Assembly (NCBI GenBank): GCA_937981555.1
Contig: CALJOK010000043.1
Span: 62,001 to 126,000, forward strand
Source of the DNA: an uncultured Saprospiraceae bacterium
GTDB lineage: Bacteria > Bacteroidota > Bacteroidia > Chitinophagales > Saprospiraceae
Direction: 5' to 3'
Length of the DNA: 64,000 bases
Shown: piece after piece, positions 20,471 through 48,375 of the stretch
Numbering within the stretch: the stretch's first letter is position 1
Layout: every line of letters begins with the position of its first letter
Position numbers and translations under genes: made by a program
Notes under the pieces: model-generated
What the model was told of the DNA's origin: nothing
What the model saw: only the letters and a program-made list of their open reading frames with translations
Database searches by the model: none

Positions 20471-23400
20471 TTACTTTCTCTTCGAAGCAGGAATCAATCG
20501 ATTTCGTACACTCGGAGTCATTCCTGCATAAACCAACAATAAAAATTCTTCACTCGTAATATTCACCGCATTGATAAAATTTGTTCTAAAATCTGTCAAT
20601 GCATTTTGACTATCATAACCTCTGACTACGAGGTTGTGAATTGCTTTCGTTTTTGGTTTTCCAAAATCCAGAATAACTCTAATTGGAATTGGATTTTCAT
20701 ATGGCATATGAAATAAATGAATGCCTTCTTCTCCTTTTAAAAAACTAAAAAGGGAATATCCTTCGAGTTGAATAAATTGCTTTTCTTTATCCACTTCTTT
20801 TTCCAAATGAAGATAATCAAAAAGGTTGTTGTACAATTTAAAAAGATATTCAATTTGTTCCTGTCCTGAATTATGAATGACACTTTCAAATCGAAGGGTC
20901 ACTTTTTGTAATTGATTTTTAATGAAGTTTTTTGAAAAAAGTTTGAGCATCGCCACTTCCAAAAAGCTATTTAAAAATTCGGTTTGAAGTGTATTATATT
21001 GAATGTTGGTTCGATTATAAATTTCACTTATTTCAGCCAAACCTTCTTGCTGGAAAAATAAATCTTTATAGTTTTCTTTTAAAATTTTATCAGAATTACT
21101 CCAAATGGTATTTCGCTTCAATCGCAGAGGAATAGCAGGATCAAGGTGAAATTTTTTATCTCTAAACCCTAGCGACAAATGTAGAATTCGTTCTTTCGTT
21201 TCCGCAATTTTTTCCTTAAAACTATAATGGTGACTCTTGGAATAATCGACGATTGCATGATCTTCCGAGTCATCACTTTCCATTCGTTGAATTTGTTTTT
21301 CGATGGTTTCTAAAATTCGATTGATGCGAAGGTAAAATCCTTTTCCTTTTTCTGCTTCGGGTAATTCAGGAAACCAACTTTCCTCTAAAGGCGCTACAAA
21401 TTGAAGAGGAGAAATCTTGGGGACGAGTTGATTTTTAACCAAAGAAATTTCAAATAAAATCGGACTAGTCGAATAATTACTCACCAATTGTGCAGCAGTC
21501 AAAGCAGTCAAATCTTTTTCAATTTGTCGCTTTAAAGCACGTCCACCCATGCGAGAATTAAAACCTCGACGAGCGACCCATTCCAATGCATCTACTTCGA
21601 TATTTAAAATAGTTGTTCTTCGAACAAATCCATCACGTGATAATAAATCCTTAATCTGCAGTCGAGCGATGCCTAAAATGTGTTGTATTTCAAGTGAATT
21701 AAAAATAACGATTTCATCAATTCGATTGACAAATTCAGGACGAAATTTATCTTCCACGGCCTTGCGATAAATCGCTCCATCATCTTGGCTGGAAGTTTTA
21801 AAACCTGCTTGTGAAGAAACTTGATTCGCTCCAATATTTGAAGTCATGATGATAATGATATTGGAAAAATCAATTGTACGACCAAGGCTATCTGTCAATC
21901 GAGCATCATCCAAAAGTTGAAGTAACAAGTCCAAAACTTTAGGATGTGCTTTTTCAATTTCATCCAACAAGACCACTCCAAAAGGTTGATACCTAACCTT
22001 GCCAGTCAGTTGACCTTCTGGATTTTGAGCATCTCCGATCAGCCTTTGCACGGCAGTATGATCGATGAATTCATTCATGTCAAATTGCATCAAAGTCGAT
22101 TCGCTTCCTGTTAGGAATTTTGATAGAACTTTGGCAGCTTGTGTTTTGCCAACACCCGTTGGCCCAATAAACATAAAGGATCCAAGCGGTTTATTAGGAG
22201 TTGTCAATCTTGCCTTGATCGTATGAATTACATTCGATAAAGTAGCAACTGCCTTTGGTTGCCCGACTAAATCGTGACTAATTTTTTGATAAAAATCTTC
22301 TTCTTCATTAGAAATCGGTAGGTTGAAAATATCTTGATTAAGTCCGCTAAATGTTTCAAATTCAGCTCGCACTTCAGGAACATCAATTCTTTGACCTCGA
22401 TGTTTTACGGCGAGTTGACGCATGATATTTATGATACTGCCTGGAAGTGATTTTCGTTTTAAATAATTTCTTTGGAAATCAAAAAGTGACTGAATGGCTT
22501 TTATTGAAAAAGTGCAATTATGAGAGTTTTCTAAAATCTTTCGATTTTCGAGCGCCATTTTCACAGCATTTTTTAGGTCAGGTTCATCCATCCTGATCAT
22601 CTGAAAAAGGTCTGCATAGCGTCGATCTTTTTCTTGAATAATTTTCCATTCTTCGGGAGTAGCAAGGATGACTAGCTGAATTGATCTTTTTTCTAAATAT
22701 GGTTTGAGGACATCATTGACCGTCATATTATTTTGAGCTGACTTTCCAATGTTTAACATCGCGACTGCATTATCGATCAAAATAATATCAGAACTTTTAT
22801 TTTTTTGATATGGATTTTTGATAAAATTTAAAACGGCTTCCATCCTTTTTTGCCACATTCCTACAATGCTCATTCCCGTAATAATTCGGGTGGGATCGAT
22901 ATGCCAAATGGTTCGAGATTTTTTGTTGAACTCCTCGATGTGTTGAAATAAAGTTTCGTGAATAATACTTTTTTTCCCAACTCCTTCTTTTCCAACTATG
23001 GCAATTGGCGTATTTTTAAATGGCTGATCAAACAAAAGACTTTCCAATCTTTCCACCATCTCTTCCTTATAGAAGGCTCGATTTAAATCATTAGGAAAAC
23101 TATTATTTAGATTTTTAGAAATTTTCCAAACTTCATTTTCACCATCCATTTTCGTATCAGCAGAAAACCGATCAATAAATGAATTTTGATTTTGATAGAC
23201 AAATGAAAAACTATCATGAGCTGCTTGAATCGGAATTTCAACAGAGGTTACAAACTCTTTTTCAGGAGAGGTATAATTATTAAAATCAAATTCACTTGGT
23301 TCGTTCGAGTGATATTTTTTTAATAATCGACTAATTACTTTGGTAGCTTGTTGTTCAAGGTTGAATCTACTTTTTTTATTCTTTTCAACGACATACATTG

Positions 23401-23764
23401 TACCATTGAAATGTGGTAAAGAGGCGAATGTGATGTTATGTAATTCGAAGAAGGCAATTCCAAATCTTCCTTGCTGATCTTTTTTTCCAGGAATAGGAAT
23501 AGTCAGGTTAAAAATTTGATAATCAATCGTTGGATTAAACCTGAACCAAATTAGATCATCTAGCGTAATACTTTCTAAAACATACCCTTTTACCGCATTT
23601 TGAATAGCCGATTTCATTTTGGAGACTGAACCTTCAAAACGAGGATGAGCATAACTCGAAAAACTAAAGAAAAGTGGAGTAGATTGATACTGCTCTTTTT
23701 CTTCATTTTTGATGAGGCTGACAAGTGCTGGAAATTCTAAATTTAATTGGACGGTGTTATTCAT
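20471..23764 (-). CDS. ClpB-like AAA+ unfoldase with release-factor-like C-terminal domain
   Basis: This 1097-residue protein has a novel N-terminal region (1-230, no Clp_N repeats). A first AAA+ module has Walker A 'GKEGVGKKS' (258-266) but a Walker B reading 'ILIDNA', with Asn332 in place of the catalytic Glu. A second module is fully canonical: 'GPTGVGKTQ' from 534, 'VVLLDEIEKAHP' and 'FRPEFVNRIDEI', followed by a Clp D2-small domain (GGRALKRQIE). The final ~270 residues are helical, then 'GYSLFSFLKGEEGIHLF' (~1010), which resembles the PCRF domain of RF1/RF2 ('YAYGYLKGE.GVHRL'); the upstream 'IWSNSDKILKENYKDL' resembles RF2's 'VWNDPEKAQAL'. No GGQ motif is present. It is divergent from the tandem CbxX gene. 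A disaggregase or unfoldase role is likely; the partner is unknown. Confidence 0.8.
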   Translation of the reverse strand: MNNTVQLNLEFPALVSLIKNEEKEQYQSTPLFFSFSSYAHPRFEGSVSKMKSAIQNAVKGYVLESITLDDLIWFRFNPTIDYQIFNLTIPIPGKKDQQGRFGIAFFELHNITFASLPHFNGTMYVVEKNKKSRFNLEQQATKVISRLLKKYHSNEPSEFDFNNYTSPEKEFVTSVEIPIQAAHDSFSFVYQNQNSFIDRFSADTKMDGENEVWKISKNLNNSFPNDLNRAFYKEEMVERLESLLFDQPFKNTPIAIVGKEGVGKKSIIHETLFQHIEEFNKKSRTIWHIDPTRIITGMSIVGMWQKRMEAVLNFIKNPYQKNKSSDIILIDNAVAMLNIGKSAQNNMTVNDVLKPYLEKRSIQLVILATPEEWKIIQEKDRRYADLFQMIRMDEPDLKNAVKMALENRKILENSHNCTFSIKAIQSLFDFQRNYLKRKSLPGSIINIMRQLAVKHRGQRIDVPEVRAEFETFSGLNQDIFNLPISNEEEDFYQKISHDLVGQPKAVATLSNVIHTIKARLTTPNKPLGSFMFIGPTGVGKTQAAKVLSKFLTGSESTLMQFDMNEFIDHTAVQRLIGDAQNPEGQLTGKVRYQPFGVVLLDEIEKAHPKVLDLLLQLLDDARLTDSLGRTIDFSNIIIIMTSNIGANQVSSQAGFKTSSQDDGAIYRKAVEDKFRPEFVNRIDEIVIFNSLEIQHILGIARLQIKDLLSRDGFVRRTTILNIEVDALEWVARRGFNSRMGGRALKRQIEKDLTALTAAQLVSNYSTSPILFEISLVKNQLVPKISPLQFVAPLEESWFPELPEAEKGKGFYLRINRILETIEKQIQRMESDDSEDHAIVDYSKSHHYSFKEKIAETKERILHLSLGFRDKKFHLDPAIPLRLKRNTIWSNSDKILKENYKDLFFQQEGLAEISEIYNRTNIQYNTLQTEFLNSFLEVAMLKLFSKNFIKNQLQKVTLRFESVIHNSGQEQIEYLFKLYNNLFDYLHLEKEVDKEKQFIQLEGYSLFSFLKGEEGIHLFHMPYENPIPIRVILDFGKPKTKAIHNLVVRGYDSQNALTDFRTNFINAVNITSEEFLLLVYAGMTPSVRNRLIPASKRK

Positions 23765-36501: not shown

Positions 36502-37203
36502 ATGTTAAAAAATCTCAAAAAGTGGTTTGTTGTAGACGATGAAGAATTTAAAGACAAGATGTCTGGAGGTAGTGCAGATGATTCTGATATTGTTCCCGAA
36601 CAAAAAACAAAATCCACTTCAACTCCAAGGTCAACTTCGTCCCCTTCTAGTACAAGTTCCACCTCTAGTTCAACAGTCCCTTCAGGGAAATCGAGCCCAA
36701 AATTTACCAATATTTTATTGCAAGCGATGGAAGCGAACAATTTGGATGGATTTGATTATTTAGAATATAAACACAGTTTGCACAACTTGGCAAAGATGCC
36801 AATGGATGAACAAACTCGTTACCAATCTGCTTATGCAGCTGCTTCGACGATGGGAGCAACTCCAGCTAAGTTAGTCAAGACCGCTCACTTTTATATTGAT
36901 GTTTTGAAAAAAGAAGAAGCGAAATTTGCGCAAGCATTAGCGAATCAAAAAGACAAGCAGATCGGAGATAAGTCTCAATTGATTCAGCAGCATGATAATT
37001 TGGTCAAAGAAAAAACCAAACAAATTGAGCAACTCAAAAAAGAAATTGCGCAGCATCAAGCGAAAAGTGAACAAATGAAAAAGAGTATTTCTTCTGCAAC
37101 GGTAAAAGTAGAAACTACTAAAAATAATTTTGTAGCCTCTTATAATCTCGTACTTTCGCAGATTAATAGAGATATTGAAAATATGAAAAAATACCTTAAA
37201 TAA
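36502..37203 (+). CDS. Ser/Thr-linker coiled-coil protein, first gene of the OmpA-SBP ABC cluster
   Basis: This 233-residue protein was not recognised as a known family. It starts with a short basic/acidic peptide (MLKNLKKWFVVDDEEFKD). A disordered linker of ~30 residues made almost only of Ser, Thr and Pro follows (TSSPSSTSSTSSSTVPSG), then a helical domain (~70-140, 'NILLQAMEANNLDGFDYLEY') and a long coiled coil (~140-233, 'NLVKEKTKQIEQLKKEIAQH'). It has no signal peptide or membrane helix, so it is cytoplasmic. Its partner is probably the membrane coiled-coil protein encoded next. A similar Ser-rich linker occurs in the OmpA-SBP protein of the same cluster. Confidence 0.75.
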   Translation: MLKNLKKWFVVDDEEFKDKMSGGSADDSDIVPEQKTKSTSTPRSTSSPSSTSSTSSSTVPSGKSSPKFTNILLQAMEANNLDGFDYLEYKHSLHNLAKMPMDEQTRYQSAYAAASTMGATPAKLVKTAHFYIDVLKKEEAKFAQALANQKDKQIGDKSQLIQQHDNLVKEKTKQIEQLKKEIAQHQAKSEQMKKSISSATVKVETTKNNFVASYNLVLSQINRDIENMKKYLK

Positions 37204-37246
37204 TGGTGGACTTTTAACGGTTAACTGTGAATGGTTAACGGTTAAT
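37203..37246. repeat. AATGGTGAA-type repeat, short diverged copy 3
   Basis: The gap after the first cluster gene holds AACGGTTAAC, a 7-base spacer and GGTTAACGGTTAA. The modules resemble those in the long palindromes at 18818 and 19425, but this copy is a direct rather than a clean inverted repeat. Confidence 0.5.
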
Positions 37247-37293
37247 AATGTTTCTCAGGATTCTTTTAAAATAAATTAATCAAAATATTAAAA

Positions 37294-38319
37294 ATGGAAA
37301 TGCAAGATTTTAAACCAAAATCATTTTGGAAAAAACCGGAAGGGGTGACTGGGGCAGTTTTTTTAACTGCGATACTTGGTGGACTAGGATATTTGATTGC
37401 AACGAATACAGCTCTTATCGCTGGGTTGTTTGCAAATACAATTACGTTAGTTGCCACACTTGCAGTTTTAGGAGCAGTAATTTATATGGTGCTTGATCCT
37501 AAAATGCGAAACCTAGTTTGGTACATGTACAAAAGTGTGATGCGATCCATAACTGGTATGTTTGTGCAGATTGATCCGATTGGAATTTTGAAATCATACA
37601 CAGATGATTTGGGTGATAATTTGGGGAAAATGAATAAGCAAATTGGAAAACTCAAAGGTCAAATGCATAAACTCAAAGAGTTGATTGTCAATAACCAAAA
37701 AGAGATTAAAAACAATTTGACCCAAGCGAGCAAAGCCAAAGAAGTCAACAAAAAGAATATCATGATTCTTAAATCTCGAAAAGCGGGACGATTAAAAGAA
37801 TCAAATATGCGATTGGAAGATTTGTACAAAAAAATGGAAGTCTTATACCGAGTGTTGACTAAGATGTATGAAAATTCTGAAATCCTTTTGGAAGATGTGA
37901 AAGATCAAGTGATGGTCAAAGAGCAAGAATACAAAGCGATCAAAGCAAGTGCTTCTGCGATGAAATCTGCAGCAAGTGTGATTTCTGGAAATCCAGATAA
38001 GCGAGCAATGTTTGATATGGCGATGGAAGCAGTAGCTGACGATGTAAGTAATAAGGTAGGGGAGATGGAAAGATTTATGGAAATGTCTTCCAACTTTATG
38101 GACTCTGTAGATTTGCAAAATGGAGTTTTTGAAGAGGAAGGAATGAAGATGTTGGAGAAATGGGAGAAAGAAGGAATTTCTAAAATCTTAGGAGAAGAAA
38201 AATCAATACTCGTCAACCAAGCAAATAGTGATGATGATGTATTGGACTTAAATGAACCAATCGCAAAACCAATGCGAGAATCAGGTCATCAAAATCAATA
38301 TGATTCGCTTTTTGATTAG
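37294..38319 (+). CDS. Two-TM membrane protein with long coiled coil
   Basis: The protein has 341 residues. Two hydrophobic helices near the N-terminus (~20-38, 'GAVFLTAILGGLGYLIATN', and ~44-65) anchor it in the inner membrane. The remainder is a mostly helical, charged domain of ~240 residues ('GKMNKQIGKLKGQMHKLKEL', 'MRLEDLYKKMEVLYRVLTKM') ending in an acidic flexible tail. The helical layout and the 'DDVSNKVGEMERFMEM' segment recall PspA/ESCRT-III-like proteins, but I cannot show homology by eye. It sits between the soluble coiled-coil gene and the OmpA-SBP gene and is likely a structural partner of both. Confidence 0.72.
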   Translation: MEMQDFKPKSFWKKPEGVTGAVFLTAILGGLGYLIATNTALIAGLFANTITLVATLAVLGAVIYMVLDPKMRNLVWYMYKSVMRSITGMFVQIDPIGILKSYTDDLGDNLGKMNKQIGKLKGQMHKLKELIVNNQKEIKNNLTQASKAKEVNKKNIMILKSRKAGRLKESNMRLEDLYKKMEVLYRVLTKMYENSEILLEDVKDQVMVKEQEYKAIKASASAMKSAASVISGNPDKRAMFDMAMEAVADDVSNKVGEMERFMEMSSNFMDSVDLQNGVFEEEGMKMLEKWEKEGISKILGEEKSILVNQANSDDDVLDLNEPIAKPMRESGHQNQYDSLFD

Positions 38320-38334
38320 TACTTAACTTCGTAG

Positions 38335-38369
38335 TAGGTATCGGATAGCTTTAAGTTATCCGATACCTA
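38335..38369 (+). repeat. GGTATCGGAT repeat family copy 2, inside the ABC cluster
   Basis: TAGGTATCGGATA and its complement TATCCGATACCTA flank a short centre. It shares the outer 11 bases with the hairpin at 14514-14546. It lies between two genes of one cluster and may tune transcription there. Confidence 0.7.
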
Positions 38370-38453
38370 TTTTAAAATAAAGGGGTAGCAAAAGGTTATC
38401 ACTTAATTACCGAACAAATTTTTTTAATAACATAATCATACAATTAAAACAAC

Positions 38454-40040
38454 ATGGCAAGGAAACTCACCACATTTTCAAAATTATTAATAGTTCTAGT
38501 AATCGTCGCAATTCTTTTCTTTGGAATTACTTATTTGAGAGATAATGGATTCTTGGGAGATATGGGACAAGAGAATACAGAACAAGCAGATAATACAGGA
38601 TCCAGCACAAGTCCAAGTTCAACTAGTTCTAATTCAGGAAGTAGTTCATCAAAAGATGTGATCAAAGTCGGAGTAGTAACTTGGGGAGGATATGCAGGTG
38701 GACAATATTTTAACGAAGGATTTGAAGCATCTAAAAAATCTCGATTTTATAAAGACTATGGCTTTGAAGTAGAATTTAAAGTTTTAGATGATTTTGATGC
38801 TTCTCGGAATGCCTTCAAATCTGGAGACGTAGATTTACTTTGGGCAACTATTGATGCCTTCCCAACTGAGGTTGGTGGATTGTCTGATTTCGATCCAGTT
38901 GTCGTTTTTCAAGCAGATTGGTCTAGAGGAGGTGATGCAATTGTAGCTCGAAGAGGAATTACAAGTGTAGCAGATTTGAAAGGTAAAAAAATCGCAGTAG
39001 CGGAAATGACACCATCTCACTCATTTTTGATTTGGTTGATGGAAGCAGGTGGATTAACTGTAAACGATGTTGAAATTTTAGGACAACCAAGTGCAATTGA
39101 TGCAGCAGAAGTTTTTAAAAGTGGTCGATGTGATGCAGCGGTAGTTTGGAGTCCAGATGATATTTTGAGTTTGAAAGCAGTACCTGGAAGTAGAGTTTTA
39201 GAGAGTTCAAGATCAGCGGCATATATTATAGCAGATGTATTCTTTGCTAAAAGAGCATTCGTTGATGCGAACAAAGAAAAAGTTCGTCAGTTATACGAAG
39301 GTTGGATGAAAGGTGCAGCTGAAATTAATTCTAATACAAATTCTAGAAAAAAAGCAGCGGCTATTTTATCTGAAGAATTTACAGAAAGAGGAACTCCGTT
39401 GACTCCTGAAGAAGCTGATGAAATGATTGGAAATGTTCGATTAGCGACTCATGGTGATAACAAAAACTTCTTCCGATTGAATAGTGATTATAAAGGTATA
39501 GCAGGAGATGATTTGTATCGAAACATGACAGATAAGTATACTGACTTAAAATATATCGAAGGTCGTGTTCCAGCGTGGAGACAAATAGCTTATCCATCAT
39601 TGGTAAGTTCCACCACTTTAACTGATCCAGCCAACTTTGCTGAAAAAGCTAAAAACTATACCAAAGCAACAAAGGCAGAAGAAACTAAAACTGCCTTGGC
39701 GACCAAAGCTGTTAGTATCTCTTTCCGAACTGGAGAATTTCGATTAGATGATAATGCGAAATATATTATTGACAAAGAGTTTGTTGACATTGCAAAAGTC
39801 TTTAACTCTAGAATTCGAATCGAAGGAAATACGGATAATGTAGGAGGCGTTGCTAGTAACAAAGCACTTTCATTAAAACGAGCAAATGCGGTAGCTGACT
39901 ATTTAGTTACAGAGCACGGAATGCCTCGTAATCGTTTTGTCATTGTTGGAAATGGACCAAACAAACCTGTGGCAACTAATGATACAGATAAAGGTCGAGC
40001 GAAAAATAGAAGAACTGATTTTGAATTACTCGCGGAGTAA
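38454..40040 (+). CDS. Membrane-anchored ABC substrate-binding protein fused to OmpA domain
   Basis: The protein has 528 residues. One N-terminal membrane helix (~10-26) is followed by a Ser-rich linker (~45-66). A NMT1/SsuA-type periplasmic binding domain then spans ~68-370 ('IKVGVVTWGGYAGGQYFNEG', 'AFKSGDVDLLWATIDAFPTE', 'DLKGKKIAVAEMTPSHSFL'). A C-terminal OmpA/MotB-like domain (~425-528) has 'IEGNTDNVGGVASNKALSL' and 'DKGRAKNRRTDFEL', the diaminopimelate-binding region. It would tether the binding domain to peptidoglycan while being anchored in the inner membrane. The permease and ATPase genes follow. Homologues with this fusion are annotated as phosphate or nitrate/taurine-type ABC/OmpA proteins; the substrate is unknown. 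Confidence 0.87.
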   Translation: MARKLTTFSKLLIVLVIVAILFFGITYLRDNGFLGDMGQENTEQADNTGSSTSPSSTSSNSGSSSSKDVIKVGVVTWGGYAGGQYFNEGFEASKKSRFYKDYGFEVEFKVLDDFDASRNAFKSGDVDLLWATIDAFPTEVGGLSDFDPVVVFQADWSRGGDAIVARRGITSVADLKGKKIAVAEMTPSHSFLIWLMEAGGLTVNDVEILGQPSAIDAAEVFKSGRCDAAVVWSPDDILSLKAVPGSRVLESSRSAAYIIADVFFAKRAFVDANKEKVRQLYEGWMKGAAEINSNTNSRKKAAAILSEEFTERGTPLTPEEADEMIGNVRLATHGDNKNFFRLNSDYKGIAGDDLYRNMTDKYTDLKYIEGRVPAWRQIAYPSLVSSTTLTDPANFAEKAKNYTKATKAEETKTALATKAVSISFRTGEFRLDDNAKYIIDKEFVDIAKVFNSRIRIEGNTDNVGGVASNKALSLKRANAVADYLVTEHGMPRNRFVIVGNGPNKPVATNDTDKGRAKNRRTDFELLAE

Positions 40041-40055
40041 AAACTAAACAGACCT

Positions 40056-40088
40056 AGCGGTGTTAGCGTTTTAGGCGCTAACACCGCT
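40056..40088 (+). repeat. GTTAGCGC repeat family copy 3, between SBP and permease genes
   Basis: AGCGGTGTTAGCG, a seven-base loop and its exact complement lie 16 bases after the SBP stop, before the permease. T residues after it give it a terminator look, so it may reduce read-through inside the cluster. Confidence 0.75.
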
Positions 40089-40108
40089 TACTTTTTATAA
40101 AAAATAAT

Positions 40109-41227
40109 ATGGAATTATTCAAACTCCGTGGTGATCTTAGTCGTTCAAATAGTCTTATTTTAGGACTAGTTGGATTTGTAATATTAATTATCGTTTGGTG
40201 GGCAGTTGCAGAAATGCTTTCTATTAAACGTCCAGTTATTGAAGGTTTTGATACGCGATTAGAATCTTCAATTGGAAAAGATCCCGCAGTTCATAAATTA
40301 TATTTAGATTCGATTGCAAAAGTAGATTCAATCAATTTTGCCAATGCAACTGAGTTTGAAAAAGTCTATCCATTATTTCCCACACCACTTCAAGTCGTTC
40401 AATCATTTCCAGAACTGATCAAAAAAGATGAGTTAGTACAGCAAACAGGAAGATCACTTTGGCTCAATATTCAAGGATATTTTTGGGCGATTTTCATTGC
40501 CGTTCCACTTGGATTTTTGATTGGGTTGTTTCCACTTTTTAGAGGATTGTTTAGTAAGCAGGTTGATGCGATGCGATTTTTACCGTTGACGGCTTTGACT
40601 GGGTTGTTTATTATTTGGTTTGGAATTGAAGATCAAATGAAGATTGCTTTCTTGGCATTTGGTATTTTAGTTTACCTTTTGCCTGTTGTGTCGCAACGAG
40701 TTTTTGAAGTGGCAGATGTTTATTTAAAAACTGTTTTTACACTTGGTGCTACAGATTGGCAAACGATTAAGACTGTTTATTTTCCTTCAGTCATGTCTAA
40801 ATTGATGGATGATATTCGAGTGCTGACTGCGATTTCTTGGACTTATATTATTATTGCAGAGTTGCTAAATCGGCAAGGTGGAATCGGTTCGTTGATGTAC
40901 ATCAAGGCTCGACAAGGGCAAATCGAAAAAGTATTTGCAGGACTAATCGTCATCATTATTATTGGATTTTTGCAAGATCGAATTTTCCAATTTATAGATA
41001 AAAGAATTTTCCCACATAAATATTCTAGCACTCAACCAACGGGATTAAAAGAATCTCAATCAGGAATACTTTTAGTTTTAGGAGGTGTTTTATTTGCGTT
41101 GTTGTTGCAAGTGATTTTGCCAAATGCGGGTTGGATTATGGGATCGTTGTTGCCGGTGATTTTGATTGGGGGAGTGTTGTTTGTTTTATATGGGGAGTTT
41201 AAGATTGCGCAGAATACTAAAGCTTAG
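40109..41227 (+). CDS. ABC transporter permease (NitT/TauT type)
   Basis: This 372-residue permease has about eight membrane helices. TM1 (~20-42) is followed by an unusual ~65-residue periplasmic insert rich in charged residues before 'LFPTPLQVVQSFPEL', the normal family start. The EAA loop that contacts the ATPase is visible as 'FTLGATDWQTIKTVYFPSVM'. Two extra hydrophobic helices follow the core at the C-terminus (~312-362). It lies between the SBP-OmpA gene and the ATPase gene and should form the homodimeric channel of the importer. Confidence 0.9.
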   Translation: MELFKLRGDLSRSNSLILGLVGFVILIIVWWAVAEMLSIKRPVIEGFDTRLESSIGKDPAVHKLYLDSIAKVDSINFANATEFEKVYPLFPTPLQVVQSFPELIKKDELVQQTGRSLWLNIQGYFWAIFIAVPLGFLIGLFPLFRGLFSKQVDAMRFLPLTALTGLFIIWFGIEDQMKIAFLAFGILVYLLPVVSQRVFEVADVYLKTVFTLGATDWQTIKTVYFPSVMSKLMDDIRVLTAISWTYIIIAELLNRQGGIGSLMYIKARQGQIEKVFAGLIVIIIIGFLQDRIFQFIDKRIFPHKYSSTQPTGLKESQSGILLVLGGVLFALLLQVILPNAGWIMGSLLPVILIGGVLFVLYGEFKIAQNTKA

Positions 41228-41239
41228 AAATAGAAAATT

Positions 41240-41842
41240 ATGAAATGGAAAACAAGCACAATAATTACTATTTTAATTTTTTCCATTGGAGTCGTTGTGT
41301 TTACTCAATACGAAAAGAAAAATAAGATTTCAGTTTTAGAAGATACAATGGATGACAGGGTTGAGGAAAGAGTGATTTTTGAGAAAACAGAATTAAATAG
41401 AAAATATGAAACTCGGATTAAGAGTTGTGAAGAACTTAATCAAGCACAGCAAGAAGAAATTAATGAATTAAAAGAGCAAATTAAATTTATTCGAAATGGA
41501 GGCGAAAACGAATATTACATAAAGCAATTAAAATTAAATTCTAAAAAGGTTTTAGAAAAAATTAAAATAAGAAAAGGAGAAGTTTATAAACATGAGAAAT
41601 CTGGAATAGTAGTTTATGTAAGAAGAGATTTTTATGAAGACCAAATTTACCTAAATATTACTTTACCAAATGAACAAACTCAAGAAAAAGATTGGTTAAC
41701 GGGCAAGTATTACTATTATTGGAATTCTCAGGAAAATGAACTTAGCGAAATAATTCCAACTTTCATTGGAGATGAATTTATTGAAATAGAATGGACTTAT
41801 TATAAAGCAAATCAAGGTACAATAGGTGACTCAATTAAATAA
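41240..41842 (+). CDS. Small membrane-anchored coiled-coil protein in the ABC cluster
   Basis: This 200-residue protein was not recognised. One N-terminal membrane helix (~5-22, 'STIITILIFSIGVVVFTQYE') is followed by a coiled coil (~30-75, 'LNQAQQEEINELKEQIKF') and a beta-rich C-terminal part (~95-195, 'GIVVYVRRDFYEDQIYLNI'). It lies 12 bp after the permease stop and 11 bp before the ATPase start, so it is in the same transcript. Its composition is more AT- and Lys-rich than its neighbours, which hints that it was inserted later. A role in assembling or regulating the importer is inference. Confidence 0.75.
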   Translation: MKWKTSTIITILIFSIGVVVFTQYEKKNKISVLEDTMDDRVEERVIFEKTELNRKYETRIKSCEELNQAQQEEINELKEQIKFIRNGGENEYYIKQLKLNSKKVLEKIKIRKGEVYKHEKSGIVVYVRRDFYEDQIYLNITLPNEQTQEKDWLTGKYYYYWNSQENELSEIIPTFIGDEFIEIEWTYYKANQGTIGDSIK

Positions 41843-41853
41843 AAAAAATAAGA

Positions 41854-42657
41854 ATGCCTAATTTTCAAGATACAGAACTAGACAACATCATCGAAATGCG
41901 AGGCATGGGTCAAAGCTATGATGGAGGAAAAAACTTTATCATCAAAGACTTAGATTTTTTGGTGGAGGACAAACCTGCCCAAGGTCAGTTTATCGTAATT
42001 TTAGGAATGTCTGGTTGCGGAAAATCAACGCTATTAAGATACGTCGCTGGGTTGCAAGAACCAACCGAAGGCAAATTATTACTCAAAGATAAACGCATCG
42101 GAAAGGACAATCGAGTGAGTATGGTTTTCCAACAATACTCTTCCTTGCCATGGTTGTCAGTTTTAGATAATGTCGGTTTAGCATTAAAATATAAGGGTGT
42201 TTCCAAAGCGGAACGAGATGCCAAGGCGATGGAACTCATCACTAAAGTTGGGCTCGCAGGTCACGAACATAAATACGCGCAGTATCCAACATTGTCAGGT
42301 GGTCAGTTGCAAAGAGTTGCGATTGCGAGAAGTTTATTGGCGAATTCTGATATACTTTTGATGGACGAACCCTTTGGTGCTTTGGATGTTAGCACACGAT
42401 TGCAGATGCAAGATTTATTGTTGGATATTTGGAATGAATATCATCCGACGATAGTTTTTGTAACGCATGATATACCCGAAGCTGTTTATTTGGCAGATGA
42501 AATTTATATTATGAAGTCGGCGCCTTCTCGATTTGTGGAACACATACATGTTGATTTACCCTTGAAGCGAGATCGTTCAACGAAGCGAGATCCAAGATAT
42601 ATTGAGTTAGTTCAGCAAGTGGAAGATACGATGATCCGAGTTGCAGAAATGGGGTAA
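41854..42657 (+). CDS. ABC transporter ATPase (NitT/TauT type)
   Basis: This 267-residue nucleotide-binding protein has Walker A 'GMSGCGKSTL', Q-loop 'VFQQYSSLPWLSVLDNVGLA', signature 'LSGGQLQRVAIARSL', Walker B 'ILLMDEPFGALD' and H-loop 'VFVTHDIPEA'. The Q-loop wording is characteristic of the nitrate/taurine/aliphatic sulfonate importer group. It energises the permease encoded two genes upstream. An MBL-fold gene follows 35 bp later and may or may not belong to the cluster. Confidence 0.95.
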   Translation: MPNFQDTELDNIIEMRGMGQSYDGGKNFIIKDLDFLVEDKPAQGQFIVILGMSGCGKSTLLRYVAGLQEPTEGKLLLKDKRIGKDNRVSMVFQQYSSLPWLSVLDNVGLALKYKGVSKAERDAKAMELITKVGLAGHEHKYAQYPTLSGGQLQRVAIARSLLANSDILLMDEPFGALDVSTRLQMQDLLLDIWNEYHPTIVFVTHDIPEAVYLADEIYIMKSAPSRFVEHIHVDLPLKRDRSTKRDPRYIELVQQVEDTMIRVAEMG

Positions 42658-42692
42658 GAGTTTAGAAAATAAATGGAAAATCATCTTCCTCA

Positions 42693-43526
42693 ATGACGAT
42701 AATCGAAACGTTTGATTTTGAAGAAATAAAAGGATTTAAGTTTGGTTATTCTCCCTTCGGAAAACCTAAATTGTATTCTCACATCTATTTTATTGATGGA
42801 TTAATGATTGACACCGGTCATACCAAAATGGCTAGCAAAATATTTAATCACGTCAAAGACCTTCCTGTAAAACAAATTTTTATCACTCATCATCATGAAG
42901 ATCATTCTGGAAATATTGCCAGAATGCAAGGTCATTTTAATTGTCCGATCTATGCTTCCAAATTGTGTAGTGAAATGATGAAGTCTCCACCTTCAATAAG
43001 TTTCGCGCAAAAAATGTCTTGGGGGAATCGACCTGCTTACAAAAAGATAATTCCGCAATCAGATTTTTTGGAAACGGAGAATTACAAATTTGAAATAATT
43101 CCTATTCCTGGTCATGCAGCTGATATGGTGGCACTTTATGAGCCCAAGAGAAAATGGTTGTTCTCTTCTGATTTGTATGTGAACTCTTACATCGCCTATT
43201 TTTTGGAAAATGAAAGTACCTCTGAACAAATCAAATCGATAAAAAGAATCTTGGAATTAGACTTTGACGTTTTGCTTTGTGGACACAATCCACAGTTTAA
43301 AAATGGGAAGGCTAAACTCAAAAAGAAATTATTATTTTTGGAAAAATTCTTTGAGTTAGTTTCGAATTTATACGAAAAGAATTACTCGGCAGAACAGATT
43401 TTTAAAGAATTGAAATTAAAAGAGTTCTGGTATGTGAGGATGATGTCGAATGGACATTTGTCAAAAATGAATATGGTCAAGTCAGTCATCCGAGATATTG
43501 AAAATGAAATGAAGATTAGTCAATAA
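42693..43526 (+). CDS. Metallo-beta-lactamase-fold hydrolase
   Basis: This 277-residue protein has the metal-binding signature 'THHHEDHSGN' (HxHxDH) near residue 68, further ligands in 'PIPGHAADMVALYE' (His) and 'LFSSDLYVN' (Asp), and a final His in 'LLCGHNPQF'. It belongs to the glyoxalase II-like general group. A helical C-terminal tail (~210-277) is unusual in the shortest members. It follows the ABC ATPase on the same strand by 35 bp and overlaps the next, convergent gene by 11 bp. Confidence 0.88.
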   Translation: MTIIETFDFEEIKGFKFGYSPFGKPKLYSHIYFIDGLMIDTGHTKMASKIFNHVKDLPVKQIFITHHHEDHSGNIARMQGHFNCPIYASKLCSEMMKSPPSISFAQKMSWGNRPAYKKIIPQSDFLETENYKFEIIPIPGHAADMVALYEPKRKWLFSSDLYVNSYIAYFLENESTSEQIKSIKRILELDFDVLLCGHNPQFKNGKAKLKKKLLFLEKFFELVSNLYEKNYSAEQIFKELKLKEFWYVRMMSNGHLSKMNMVKSVIRDIENEMKISQ

Positions 43527-44229
43527 TTTCAAATCTCATAAAATCCATCCAACCATTTTCCTTCGTTTCATCTGCTAATTTTATCGGAGTTAATTGATGA
43601 GTGATATTTTGCTGATTCCCATCTTTATTTTTTAGAAAAACAAAATCTCCCGCTATTAATTTTCGTTGGAAAATAACTTCCGTTGAATTATCATCCATGC
43701 GTTCCAATATCTGAGATTCTCCTCCTTTAATATTTTCTTGCTGCAAGATTATAGTGGAACCTTCAAAATTAGGATTCTCGAATGCAATCATCTTCTCCAT
43801 TCCTTGAGAAATTTTTTCTCTAATAAATTGAATTTCAATTTTTACGAAATCCTGCGGTAATTCGCTTTTGATAAATTTATAGAATTGTGAAAACACCGAT
43901 CCAAAAAGATGATGAATCGGCTTGGTTCGAAATTCTTTATTGAAAAAATAATTAATGGGAAAATTAGTATCCTCCTCTTTTTCTATAAAAAGTCGAAGAC
44001 CTTTTGAGGAGACCTTAAATTCAATGCTAGCATTTTTTCTCAACGAAATTTTTTCGGAGGCATTTTTCTCCCAAGGCAGTTCATCAAAAAACTCAATAAA
44101 AGTTTTTACGAATAATTCAGGTTGAATATAAAAATATTTTAAATTACTCATCTGAACTATCGAATTGATAGGTCTACCAATCTTATTAGAAATTGTTACT
44201 TGAGAAAGTGGAAATTTTTTATTCTTCAT
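43516..44229 (-). CDS. Degenerate 2OG-Fe(II) dioxygenase-like protein
   Basis: The protein has 237 residues. Residues ~130-225 follow the order of conserved features of 2OG-Fe dioxygenase family proteins of the BsmA/IDO group: 'VKIEIQFIREK', 'NIKGGESQIL' (family: NxxGGES), 'LIAGDFVFLKN' and 'ITHQLTPI' (family: HxVTPI). The first metal-binding motif HxD, expected just before the GGES segment, is replaced by 'FENPNFEG' with neither His nor Asp in place. The last His is present. If the homology holds, the iron site is incomplete and the protein is probably not a normal oxygenase. The stop overlaps the convergent MBL gene. Confidence 0.55.
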   Translation of the reverse strand: MKNKKFPLSQVTISNKIGRPINSIVQMSNLKYFYIQPELFVKTFIEFFDELPWEKNASEKISLRKNASIEFKVSSKGLRLFIEKEEDTNFPINYFFNKEFRTKPIHHLFGSVFSQFYKFIKSELPQDFVKIEIQFIREKISQGMEKMIAFENPNFEGSTIILQQENIKGGESQILERMDDNSTEVIFQRKLIAGDFVFLKNKDGNQQNITHQLTPIKLADETKENGWMDFMRFEIID

Positions 44230-44254
44230 AATTTATGATCAAGCCCTTCTTTCA

Positions 44255-44338
44255 GTTTTTCAAAATGGGAATAAAAAATCCCTACTTTCAGTCTCGAAAA
44301 CGAAAGTAGGGATTTTTTTAGTCCCGTTTTTGAAAAAC
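44255..44338. terminator. Nested double hairpin
   Basis: An inner 17-bp perfect stem (AAAAAATCCCTACTTTC) is enclosed in an outer imperfect one (GTTTTTCAAAATGGGA with TCCCGTTTTTGAAAAAC). It sits between the TerB-like and dioxygenase-like genes, both on the minus strand, and likely ends the TerB-like transcript. Confidence 0.75.
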
Positions 44339-44349
44339 GAAAATATTGA

Positions 44350-44679
44350 CTAGAGTAATTTTTTTAAGACACGCATTAGATTTTGTTCTAGCAAACTAAA
44401 TTCGCCATCTGCCATGAATTCTTTTTTCATCAAGTCTAATAATTCATTAGTCCTGTCAGCAGTTGGGAAATATAAACCTTTGTAGGACAGGATTAAATTA
44501 ATCTTATTAATGTCAGACATGGAATGATATTCCTTCCAAATTTCTTCGTAGGTTTCTTCATTTACTTTTTGCAAAATTGCTTCCTTTTCTTCAGAAGTAA
44601 CTTTCAAATCTGCTGATGCAGCATAGAGCATTAGAAATGCTGAAAATTCTTGGAAATTCCACTTTGGGTGATCATTCAT
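44350..44679 (-). CDS. Small TerB-like helical protein
   Basis: This 109-residue all-helical protein resembles one TerB module: 'FSAFLMLYAASADLKVTSEE' opens with the acidic helix pair typical of the fold, and the end reads 'EFMADGEFSLLEQNLMRVLK', with the recurring DGxxxxxE pattern. TerB domains are membrane-associated or metal-linked stress modules; their role is poorly known. I chose the ATG at 44679 (MNDHPKWNFQ) because the longer ORF start adds a low-complexity Lys/Thr stretch. Similar small proteins lie at 48486 and 50354. Confidence 0.65.
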   Translation of the reverse strand: MNDHPKWNFQEFSAFLMLYAASADLKVTSEEKEAILQKVNEETYEEIWKEYHSMSDINKINLILSYKGLYFPTADRTNELLDLMKKEFMADGEFSLLEQNLMRVLKKLL

Positions 44680-44964
44680 GTGTGTTTGTTTTTTTGTAAA
44701 AGTAAATATTTTTTCCAAAAAAATATAGAAGAATAATTTTAGATATAAAAGGGGATTGGAATAGGTGAAATTAAAAATTACTCCTACTACTATTTAAGAA
44801 AAGATAGTGATTCTTGTCGATTAGATCTACTACAATATTAACCTAAGTTTCAATTGTTTTATCCCGAAGGGAAGAGGAATTTTTATTTTCGTATAATGAT
44901 TTTTTATAATAAAATAAAATCTAGATTTTGTCCTGAGATAGCAACAAGTTCTATTTAAAATACT

Positions 44965-44982: not shown

Positions 44983-47900
44983 TTGTTATTTCATCAAAAC
45001 ATAAAGTCTATTATATACAACTCACTTTTTCACGACGTGCGAGGATCAATTATTACTTTTCTAATGTTGCTTTTTGGAAGTTCACTTTTTGCTCAAGTTG
45101 GCAAAGTGAATAAGGAAACATTTTTTCCTGTAAAAATAAATAAGCAATGGGGAATGATGAATTCCAAGGGGAAGGTTGTAATTCAACCTCAGTATGATGC
45201 CATCGGAGAATTTAAAGAATATGGCTATGCGGTTATGCAACGTAATGATAGAGTTGGTTTGGTCAATAAATATGGTCGAGAAGTTCTACCGCCTGAATAT
45301 GACGATATCAAAATTTTAGATTCATTACTCTTTGCCGTTTTGGATGTGTCGGATTGGAAAGTGGTTAATGTAGCAGGGGAAGTAATTTTGAATAATGGTT
45401 ACGAGCAAGTTCATATTTGGAAAAGGAAGTTTATTGGGTTTAGGCAAAATAGAAAATGGGGAGTAGCGAATATCGAGGGTGAAATAATTACTAGTCCAAA
45501 ATATGATGAAATAGAACTCTTGGACAATGAATTCTTTCAAACTAAAATCAATGATAAATTAGGTTTGCTATCCACCGATGGAGAAGAAATTTTAGCCAAC
45601 GAATCTTCCCAAATTGAAATATATAACTCCGAACTTTTCTTTTTTCAAAAAAATAAAAAATGGGGCGCGGTCAATCAAAAAGGCCAACAATTAATTCGCC
45701 CATCCTTCCAATCCTTTTTTACCCTTTCCGATAATTTTATTAAACTCATTGCCAATAGTCGGGTGTATTTATATTCGGTTCCAAAAGAAAAGATTATCAC
45801 TAAAGGACAATATGAAACTTATTATACTTTTTCCAAAAAACAAGTTTTGTGTAAAAATAATCGCAAACTAGGTTTGATTGATTGGTTTGGAAAAGCATTG
45901 TTAGATGTAAAATATGACGAGATTCAATCTTATGGAAATAATCAATTTCGAGCAAGCATCAAAGGTAAATGGGGAGTGGTTGCTGCAGGGGATCAAATCA
46001 TTGTTCCATTCGAGTATGATTATATCGCACCATTAAAATCAAAAATGTGTGTGGTCAAAAAAAATGGAAAATTAGGAATAGTTAGCATAGATGGTAAAGA
46101 ACAAGTACATCCTAAATTTGATAAAATTAGCATCAAAGAAAATAAAGCAGAGGCTTATCAAAATGATGTTTTTACGATCCTCACATTTGACAAAAATGGA
46201 AATCTACAAGGAGAGGATGAATTTCAGAATCATGTAAAATTAAAAATTGGAGGAAAGAAAAGTAAAAATATTTCCGAGAATTCAATTGATAAAAATGATT
46301 ATCAATTAGATCAATTTGAATGGTACTATGATGCCAAGCAAGATAAGTGGGGATTGCGAAAACTAGAAGATGGAAGTGTGCATATCGAACCAGTTTTTGA
46401 TTGGATTAGAATGGAGCGGGATATTAATTTTACGTTGGTAGGGATTGAAAAATGGAATAAGTATTCTTTTGATCGAACGAATTATCGGTTCGATATGGTT
46501 TTTGGATTAGTTAATAATGAGAATGGATTGCTCGTAACTCCGGTTGAATTATTAGATGTTCGACTCTCAGATTTTCAAGAGGGGAATCCTACCGCACGAG
46601 TTGTTTTTTCAAATGGGACACATGGTTTAGTGGCTAAAAATGGAGCTTACCTTGCAAAAGATTATGCATTCATTGATGACTTCCAAAATGGAATTGCTCG
46701 AATGAGTATGCGTGGGAAATTGTCAGGGAATTTGAAAAATAAAAATCAAAGTTTAGGGAAAGTCAAAGATTACTTAAGTGCGATTTTGTCACCAAACTAT
46801 ATGACTGATTATACGGATCATGACAAAGAATTTAGAAATGAGGCAGAGTTGACTTGTCATAATTGTGAGTGGGGATATATTGATACAAGCGGTACGATTG
46901 CAGTTACGCCTAAATATAATTTTGTTGGAGAGATGGTTAACAATATTGGGATTGTAGAGAAAGGAGCTAAAATTGGAGCAATTGATGCTTCCGGAAATGT
47001 ATTGTTATCATGTGAATATGACCGTATTCATTTTTTGGAAAAAACGGATAACCAGATTTTGCAAGTCTATAAAAATGGATCAAAATATGGTTTGATTGAT
47101 ACCTTGGCAGAAGTGGCCGTTGATTTAAAATATGATGAAATAGGGGAGTTTAGTGAAAATCGATTAGCGGTTTTGAGAAAAGGACTTTGGGGGTTTACTA
47201 ACTTAGAAGGAGAGGAAATTATTTCTTGTAAATATCGAAAGGTTGGAAAATTTGAAGAAGGATATGCAGCTGCTCAGTTAGGCAACAAATGGGGATTTAT
47301 CGATCGCAAAGGGAATATTATTATTGAGTTTAAATATCGAAGAGTAGGGAATTTTAAAAATGGTTTAACCTGGGTCGCGACTTCTTCAGGAGTTGGATAT
47401 ATTAATGATAAAAGTGAAAAGATCATTATTCCAAAATTTGATAAAGCTTTTGATTTTGAAAATAATGTGGCGAGAGTAGTGGTCAATGGGAAGTTTGGAT
47501 TAATAAATAATTTGGGAGAATATTTTGTCAGACCAAAATATAATCACATCGGGGAGTTTAATGAAATTGGAGTTGCTATTGTCCAAACTGGGAATCAAAA
47601 AATCAGATATGGACTGATAAATCAAACAGGAGATTTAATTGGAAATACTCAATACAAAAAAATTCTACCTTTTAAAGAAGGCTTGGCTGCGGTTCAATAT
47701 AAAAATCGATATGGATTTATTGATGCTAAAGGTAATATTCAAATTGATGCTCAGTATTCGAAGGCTTCCAGTTTTTCAGAAGGCTTGGCTGCTGTTCAAA
47801 AAAACGGACAATGTGGTTACATTGATAAAACTGGAAAAGAAGTAATTCCGCTTACGTATTCTCGTTGCTTGGATTTTGAAGATGGAAAAGCTATTGTTTT

Positions 47901-48375
47901 TCAAGGGATGAGAAATGCAGGAGTAATTAGTAAAACGGGGGAAGAGATTATTTCACCAAGTATTAATGGTCTCGTTGGCTTCTCCAATAAGCGAGGATTA
48001 ATTCGAGATAGAAGTTGGAATTATTACTATATAACTGAGGAAGCAAGATTCTATGATGGATATTATGACTATGCTCAATCTTTTGAACATGGAATTGCTA
48101 TCGTACAAAAAAAAGGAAAATGGGGAATCATCAACCAAAATGGAATGCCCGTCATTACTCCAAAATATGATAAGATTGAACCTTTCCAAAATGGATTTGC
48201 AAAAGTCAGAATTAATGGATTTAGTGGGTTGACTAACTTGAAAGGAGAGCTAATTGTTTTGCCTGAATATGAGTTTATTAGTTATGTTGGAGAAGGATTA
48301 TTTAGAGTAGAGCAAGGTGATAAGATTGGATATTTCGACTCGATGGGAGAGTGGATTTGGAAATTGCAAAATTGA
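44983..48375 (+). CDS. Giant secreted WG-repeat protein
   Basis: This protein of up to 1130 residues consists of about twenty WG-type repeats of ~45-50 residues, each with 'WG.(I/V)...G..I..P.YD.I..F..G.A.V', for example 'NKQWGMMNSKGKVVIQPQYD' and 'GKWGIINQNGMPVITPKYDK'. The repeats form beta-rich solenoid or propeller-like structures that bind unknown partners. A signal peptide ending 'FLMLLFGSSLFAQ' indicates export. A non-repeat interruption lies at ~410-440 (GGKKSKNISENSIDKND) and another near 585-610. The ORF opens with TTG; the GTG at 45037 (MRGSIITFLML) gives a more usual signal peptide. A hairpin follows the stop. Confidence 0.9.
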   Translation: MLFHQNIKSIIYNSLFHDVRGSIITFLMLLFGSSLFAQVGKVNKETFFPVKINKQWGMMNSKGKVVIQPQYDAIGEFKEYGYAVMQRNDRVGLVNKYGREVLPPEYDDIKILDSLLFAVLDVSDWKVVNVAGEVILNNGYEQVHIWKRKFIGFRQNRKWGVANIEGEIITSPKYDEIELLDNEFFQTKINDKLGLLSTDGEEILANESSQIEIYNSELFFFQKNKKWGAVNQKGQQLIRPSFQSFFTLSDNFIKLIANSRVYLYSVPKEKIITKGQYETYYTFSKKQVLCKNNRKLGLIDWFGKALLDVKYDEIQSYGNNQFRASIKGKWGVVAAGDQIIVPFEYDYIAPLKSKMCVVKKNGKLGIVSIDGKEQVHPKFDKISIKENKAEAYQNDVFTILTFDKNGNLQGEDEFQNHVKLKIGGKKSKNISENSIDKNDYQLDQFEWYYDAKQDKWGLRKLEDGSVHIEPVFDWIRMERDINFTLVGIEKWNKYSFDRTNYRFDMVFGLVNNENGLLVTPVELLDVRLSDFQEGNPTARVVFSNGTHGLVAKNGAYLAKDYAFIDDFQNGIARMSMRGKLSGNLKNKNQSLGKVKDYLSAILSPNYMTDYTDHDKEFRNEAELTCHNCEWGYIDTSGTIAVTPKYNFVGEMVNNIGIVEKGAKIGAIDASGNVLLSCEYDRIHFLEKTDNQILQVYKNGSKYGLIDTLAEVAVDLKYDEIGEFSENRLAVLRKGLWGFTNLEGEEIISCKYRKVGKFEEGYAAAQLGNKWGFIDRKGNIIIEFKYRRVGNFKNGLTWVATSSGVGYINDKSEKIIIPKFDKAFDFENNVARVVVNGKFGLINNLGEYFVRPKYNHIGEFNEIGVAIVQTGNQKIRYGLINQTGDLIGNTQYKKILPFKEGLAAVQYKNRYGFIDAKGNIQIDAQYSKASSFSEGLAAVQKNGQCGYIDKTGKEVIPLTYSRCLDFEDGKAIVFQGMRNAGVISKTGEEIISPSINGLVGFSNKRGLIRDRSWNYYYITEEARFYDGYYDYAQSFEHGIAIVQKKGKWGIINQNGMPVITPKYDKIEPFQNGFAKVRINGFSGLTNLKGELIVLPEYEFISYVGEGLFRVEQGDKIGYFDSMGEWIWKLQN

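Follow-up and report, generated by a model that had tools for sequence, protein, structure and literature searches.

What is the long C-terminal extension of a Clp-like unfoldase made of, and could it lead the unfoldase to the ribosome? The question is raised by gene A, which we studied in a 64,000-nucleotide stretch of DNA from an uncultured Saprospiraceae bacterium (the window). Its open reading frame runs along the minus strand, the plus strand of the same interval being full of stops. A preliminary description, made from the letters alone, had taken the product for a ClpB-like unfoldase with a Clp D2 module and had read by eye, in the residues that follow, parts of the release factors (RF) RF1 and RF2. 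Our analysis leaves us almost certain that gene A encodes a double AAA+ subunit of the Clp/Hsp100 type which ends in a class-I release factor lacking the GGQ domain, that is, with RF domains 1-2-4. The features discussed below are located in Table 1.

Table 1. Location of gene A, of its domains and of the related genes. Unprefixed coordinates refer to the window.
Feature	Coordinates	Strand	Remarks
Gene A, whole, 1097 aa	20471..23764	(-)	N-domain, D1 predicted dead, D2 predicted active, GGQ-less release-factor tail
N-terminal domain, residues 1-205	23150..23764	(-)	predicted alpha/beta fold, AlphaFold pLDDT 87
AAA+ D1, residues 206-475	22340..23149	(-)	ATPase site degenerate: Walker A without S/T, Walker B D331-N332
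AAA+ D2 and small domain, residues 490-762	21479..22297	(-)	ATPase motifs intact, GYVG pore loop replaced by shorter GDAQNPEG
Tail part 1, residues 766-950	20915..21469	(-)	beta hairpin and helical region, RF domain-1-like
Tail part 2, residues 951-1030	20675..20914	(-)	RF domain 2 (PCRF core)
Tail part 3, residues 1046-1082	20519..20629	(-)	RF domain 4 (VIRxY...LTDxRTxF)
Tandem SpoVK/CbbX-type AAA protein, 878 aa	24199..26835	(+)	divergent neighbour of A, uncharacterised N-terminal region
Paralogue B, 1081 aa, diverged RF-like tail	L031:6520-9765	(-)	same genome as the window
Paralogue C, 755 aa, tail-less	L032:3440-5707	(+)	same genome as the window
Protein E genes	L238:5508-8153; L239:268-2913; L244	(-); (-);	PCRF domain above Pfam cut-off, RF2-type domain 4

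The assignment to the Clp family, already made in the preliminary description, was borne out. Pfam placed AAA_2 at residues 525-685 (E 1.6e-48) and ClpB_D2-small at residues 692-762 (E 4.8e-8); among PDB sequences, D2 matched ClpB with an E-value of 3e-79 and residues 204-761 gave a continuous match to ClpA. The Walker A (GPTGVGKT) and Walker B (LLDEIEKAH) motifs of D2, its sensor and its arginine finger are all intact. In the window protein the canonical Clp pore loop GYVGYEEGG, whose aromatic GYVG serves in threading, is changed into the shorter GDAQNPEG, and GYVG was found in none of 15 orthologues of A, some of which have an aromatic residue there (e.g. GDYFNPEG). D1 is still recognisable, with GKEGVGKK as Walker A and IILIDNA as Walker B. 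The residue N332 of this IDNA motif, from which damage to the first AAA+ site had been deduced beforehand, is at least 90% conserved in 15 orthologues, and in most orthologues the residue following GK is K, H, E or N and not S/T. Lacking an Asp-Glu Walker B, the D1 ATPase is, to judge from its motifs, dead. Compared with ClpB proper, A shows no middle domain in the alignment and no Clp_N match, and it stayed far below the cut-offs of the NCBIfam models for ClpB (323.5 against 1232 bits) and ClpA (324 against 993 bits). By the motifs of its D2, A ranks among the Clp/Hsp100 AAA+ proteins; hexamer formation and ATP-driven unfolding are inferred.

The N-domain, of about 205 residues, has no Pfam match and is related to that of paralogue B. 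Foldseek compared its model to the HicB antitoxin fold with probabilities of 0.96 and 0.90 and weak E-values (0.29 or worse, the best being 6g1c with 0.29), so that the resemblance of the model is no more than suggestive. Two strongly diverged orthologues of gene A (L240:597-3710, minus strand, and L241:3-902, plus strand) lie in the same synteny, with a ferredoxin gene adjoining, and show no recognisable A-type N-domain in the available part.

We then looked at the stretch that follows the D2 module. A non-ClpB extension is indeed present there, although it is longer than the roughly 270 residues first announced and covers about 335 (763-1097). Direct searches of Pfam and of the PDB sequences with this tail gave no significant match, and the Pfam PCRF model alone was weak on A members (best E 0.011, in 4 of 56). 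The case was therefore built on profiles, on structure and on bridging sequences. Against a profile of 23 RF1/RF2 sequences the A tail scored 38.8; none of 200 column shuffles exceeded 26.8, and the reversed alignment gave 28.1. In release factors, the GGQ domain 3 is inserted between domains 2 and 4 (PMC6514570). When the GGQ columns were taken out of the profile, the score reached 58.0 (Prob 93.7, P 1.9e-7; no shuffle exceeded 24.9), the alignment now extending into domain 4, where VIRxY...LTDxRTxF of the tail faces IRTYN...VTDHRINLT of the RFs. RF domain 4 on its own matched the last 61 residues of A (score 27.8, Prob 80.9, P 1.3e-5), where shuffles scored 17.4 at best. Since the hhalign P-values refer to single comparisons and are only roughly calibrated, it is the shuffles that carry the argument. 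The same register was obtained, well above shuffled controls, for the segment GYSLFSFLKGEEGIHLF (residues 1002-1018) that had been aligned with PCRF by eye; E1012, G1014 and H1016 fall on the E-x-G-x-H signature of the RFs. More generally, the positions fully conserved in 56 tails (L974, E1012, G1014, R1048, D1058 and R1060) are largely those conserved in the RFs.

The predicted fold led to the same assignment. The AlphaFold model of residues 766-1097, computed from a 56-sequence non-redundant alignment, had a pLDDT of 89.8 and a pTM of 0.90, and its matches among 350,542 PDB chains were almost only RF1/RF2 structures. Foldseek ranked E. coli RF1 first (E 7e-5, probability 1.00), followed by B. 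subtilis RF2 (E 3.5e-3, probability 0.93) and T. maritima RF1 (E 7.6e-3, probability 0.90), the alignment to RF1 spanning 397 columns; the fourth match had a probability of only 0.10, and nothing convincing was found for the tail among viral structures. TM-scores across the whole tail were low, below 0.3, presumably because the domain arrangement differs and the targets have an extra domain. For the helical RF domain 1, support in A comes from the fold only, and from the profile in B and E. The helical segment IWSNSDKILKENYKDL, also singled out by eye, does lie inside the RF domain-1-like part of the model; its exact residue match was confirmed by no alignment.

A bridge to the release factors is provided by protein E, a distinct Clp-like protein of 881 residues without N-domain, found with the tail profile in a few Saprospiraceae. 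In this protein, the Clp D2 small domain is directly followed by a match to Pfam PCRF of 36.7 and 37.6 bits, where the curated cut-off is 24. Its tail aligns with GGQ-deleted RFs over 214 columns across domains 1, 2 and 4 (Prob 97, P 7e-11); in domain 4 it is clearly of the RF2 type (93.6% versus 14.5% for RF1). Used as a single query, the E tail retrieved RF2-sized genes of other Bacteroidia, with E-values down to 9e-9 (their release-factor identity was taken from frames of 342-380 residues and from the position of the match), as well as A orthologues (E 2e-4 and 4e-4). In bridging RF2 and A at the sequence level, the E tail settles that the A tail is RF-derived. As a separate observation, an ArfB-like GGQ rescue-factor gene (L238:2883-3293) is located two genes from one of the protein E genes.

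Could the RF likeness nevertheless have come about by convergence or as an artefact, in a tail that is really a domain of helical and alpha/beta make-up unrelated to RFs? The weak PCRF scores of the A members and the low TM-scores would speak for it. Against it stand profile scores far above the shuffles that are higher once the GGQ domain is deleted, a Foldseek specificity for RF1/RF2, and, in protein E, the same architecture with a PCRF domain passing the curated cut-off. We regard this explanation as barely tenable. The reading of the tail as RF domains would have been refuted by the absence of any PCRF profile match together with a different fold, an outcome that did not occur.

Which parts of a release factor has the tail kept? 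The GGQ motif is absent from all 56 non-redundant A tails, in agreement with what had been described for the window protein. In contrast, the codon-recognition parts, described as missing too, are there: domains 2 and 4, which together form the codon-recognition superdomain, are both present, and only the stop-codon tripeptide PxT/SPF is gone. In this region the A tails read HxNP[LI]PI, with P1025 and P1027 conserved. The arginine that comes after the His in GVHR of the RFs is lost as well. Conservation within the tail is highest in the superdomain 2/4 core, and we infer that the most conserved tail residues look like the structural core of that superdomain and not like rRNA contacts. That the tripeptide and the GVHR arginine are lost argues for changed contacts and against any remaining reading of stop codons, and a purely structural reuse of the module becomes a serious rival to ribosome targeting.

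The window genome has two paralogues of A, B and C. Both have a D1 predicted to be dead and an altered D2 pore loop. Domains 1 and 2 of the B tail match RFs (Prob 67-76, shuffles at most 22); no direct match above shuffles was obtained between the B tail and the A or E tails, and the case for B therefore rests on its own RF match. In a tree of the D2 rings, A, B, C, E and the canonical Clp proteins came out separate, each with full support; the branching order was not reliably resolved. If the RF module had been captured as a protein-protein interaction or oligomerisation scaffold off the ribosome, with the Clp ring serving another process such as envelope, gliding or secretion remodelling, it would be understandable that the PxT/SPF tripeptide and the GVHR arginine are gone, that the B tail has diverged strongly and that translation genes are lacking near A. 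It would be less so that three separate Clp clades retain RF domains with the same domain deleted, and that the superdomain 2/4 core is what the tail conserves best. The scaffold explanation is a genuine possibility, one that we would not call probable.

We also studied how the architecture is distributed. The orthologues, taken from whole genomes and from a scan of GTDB genomes, have open frames in nearly all cases, and cultured isolates are among their hosts (e.g. Aureispira sp. CCB-QB1, Phaeodactylibacter xiamenensis and Flavilitoribacter nigricans). Among 199 Saprospiraceae genomes, A is present in 73 (75 hits minus two that are protein E), B in 76 and C in 73; 68 genomes have all three and 121 have none. 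The co-occurrence of A and B gives a Fisher P of 4e-45, which is overstated since species are not independent; in genera where both states exist, A and B were lost or kept together (e.g. G003 versus G000 and G002). The search of other genomes for this architecture, suggested at the outset, thus found A widely in the family, with related tails in B and E. Outside it, a scan of 395 other Bacteroidota genomes gave no A tail beyond one weak fragmentary match, and none of 50,697 phage or 72,556 plasmid records matched. Gene A is single-copy and often in conserved synteny. Between the window gene and an 89% identical relative, dN/dS was 0.025 for the first half of the tail and 0.09 for the second, with similar values for the AAA+ domains; by this measure the tail is under strong purifying selection.

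These data weigh on another explanation, in which the tail is a decoy release factor: devoid of GGQ, it would occupy terminating or stalled ribosomes and block RF1/RF2, causing a regulated arrest (e.g. anti-phage or dormancy), while the ATPase ring would control its exposure. Such a role is in keeping with the absence of GGQ from 56 of 56 tails that keep domains 1, 2 and 4, and inactive borrowed modules were reportedly proposed, in an eLife study of 2020, to act as dominant negatives in conflict systems of multicellular bacteria. A decoy fits poorly, however, with a single-copy gene under purifying selection and often in conserved synteny, without visible defence neighbours or phage or plasmid relatives, and whose product has no tripeptide to read stop codons. 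We find it improbable. For A as a defence or mobile element, the candidacy was likewise dropped, the tail having no match in the phage and plasmid records and no convincing one among viral structures.

The neighbourhood gave few clues. No translation or rescue genes, and no defence genes, were seen among the immediate neighbours of A. The divergent SpoVK/CbbX-type gene was rejected as a specific partner, being present in 36 of 37 family genomes with or without A (a few matches weak or partial); it is a family-wide core gene that often adjoins A and merely a conserved neighbour. A ClpV-like role for a contractile injection system was set aside too, since matches to the phage-sheath family are only loosely associated with A (seen in 10 of the 16 genomes that have it and in 4 of the 21 that lack it) and mostly under the cut-off. 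RF3 was uninformative as a marker, being present throughout the Saprospiraceae. The window genome has its own RF1 and RF2 elsewhere. Farther along the window lie an EF-G-type paralogue of 703 residues, one of several in the genome (57176-59287, plus strand), and an apparent operon (36502-44718) which, by eye only, encodes coiled-coil proteins, a periplasmic-binding/OmpA-like fusion, an ABC permease and ATPase, and small TerB-like proteins. A large protein of WG-like repeats (44983-48375, plus strand) is 21 kb from A here; its homologue is close to A in L037 and L045.

How might such a protein work? We propose that A subunits would assemble into a hexamer powered by D2, in which D1 would serve as a structural ring. 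From the topology of known Clp rings, six RF-like tails would hang from the exit face. Enough of the decoding superdomain and of helical domain 1 may remain in them for docking on the ribosome, at its A site or factor-binding side; lacking PxT/SPF they would have no stop-codon specificity, and lacking GGQ they would not release the peptide. In this way the ATPase could be delivered to ribosomes that are stalled, terminating or dormant, and its ATP-driven work there would remodel a bound factor or a ribosomal complex. B, with the same kind of tail, and tail-less C might work alongside A in one pathway, perhaps as members of mixed or of alternative rings. Several points count against targeting: with the GVHR arginine and the tripeptide, the ribosome contacts may have been lost too; the best conserved tail residues suggest, by inference, a structural core and not rRNA contacts; no translation or rescue gene adjoins A; and an exit-face tail, placed there by homology with other Clp proteins, seems ill-suited to pulling a nascent chain out of the ribosome. 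This position makes simple nascent-chain extraction unlikely and fits factor remodelling or conformational signalling better. That A is a Clp protein which carries a GGQ-less RF tail and is also targeted to ribosomes we hold, both parts taken jointly, to be not quite an even bet, the targeting being inferred without any binding data. The fuller picture of an A-site-docking AAA+ machine of Saprospiraceae, a Clp ring that uses a GGQ-less RF as ribosome-targeting adaptor and acts with B and C in a ribosome-associated remodelling pathway without counterpart in model bacteria, is offered tentatively. The link to stalled translation or ribosome quality control, already put forward in the preliminary description, has no supporting experiment and remains a hypothesis.

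In Saprospiraceae, which are aquatic bacteria, the fusion suggests an undescribed route that brings a ring-shaped unfolding motor to ribosomes. If the tail still docks there, it would tie Clp-type ATPases physically and directly to bacterial translation stalling or termination, with a logic analogous to that of Cdc48-Vms1; if it does not, a translation-factor domain has clearly been put to a different use. In both cases, we have a first structural explanation for a widespread, unannotated Saprospiraceae trio, A-B-C, and the occurrence of A in cultured isolates makes the question directly testable. As far as we could find, within the search made, there is no earlier description of an unfolding motor joined to a translation release factor from which precisely the catalytic domain is gone. 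The words 'Clp' and 'unfoldase' never occur in a survey of RF evolution (PMC6514570), and no description of a Clp-RF fusion was found in the open-access literature, including that survey and a paper on conflict systems, PMC7159879; subscription papers, preprints and some databases were outside the scope.

Compared with known systems, A shares the double AAA+ layout and the intact D2 ATPase motifs of Clp/Hsp100 proteins (ClpA, ClpB, ClpC) but differs from them by its dead D1 (as predicted), its replaced GYVG loop, the lack of a ClpB middle domain and of Clp_N, and the added RF tail. With class-I RF1/RF2 (PF03462) the tail has in common domains 2 and 4, supported by both fold and profile, preceded as in the RFs by a domain 1 which in A is supported by the fold only; unlike them, it has neither the GGQ domain 3 nor PxT/SPF and is fused to a Clp ring. 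The GGQ-only rescue factors ArfB/YaeJ have, like the A tail, their origin in the bacterial RF superfamily, and are its reverse, since they keep the GGQ domain without the decoding superdomain. In eukaryotic ribosome quality control, Vms1-Cdc48 links a release-factor-type protein to an AAA+ unfoldase (PMC6514570). There the two are separate proteins, the RF fold is unrelated and the hydrolase domain is kept, so that the likeness to A is one of analogy only.
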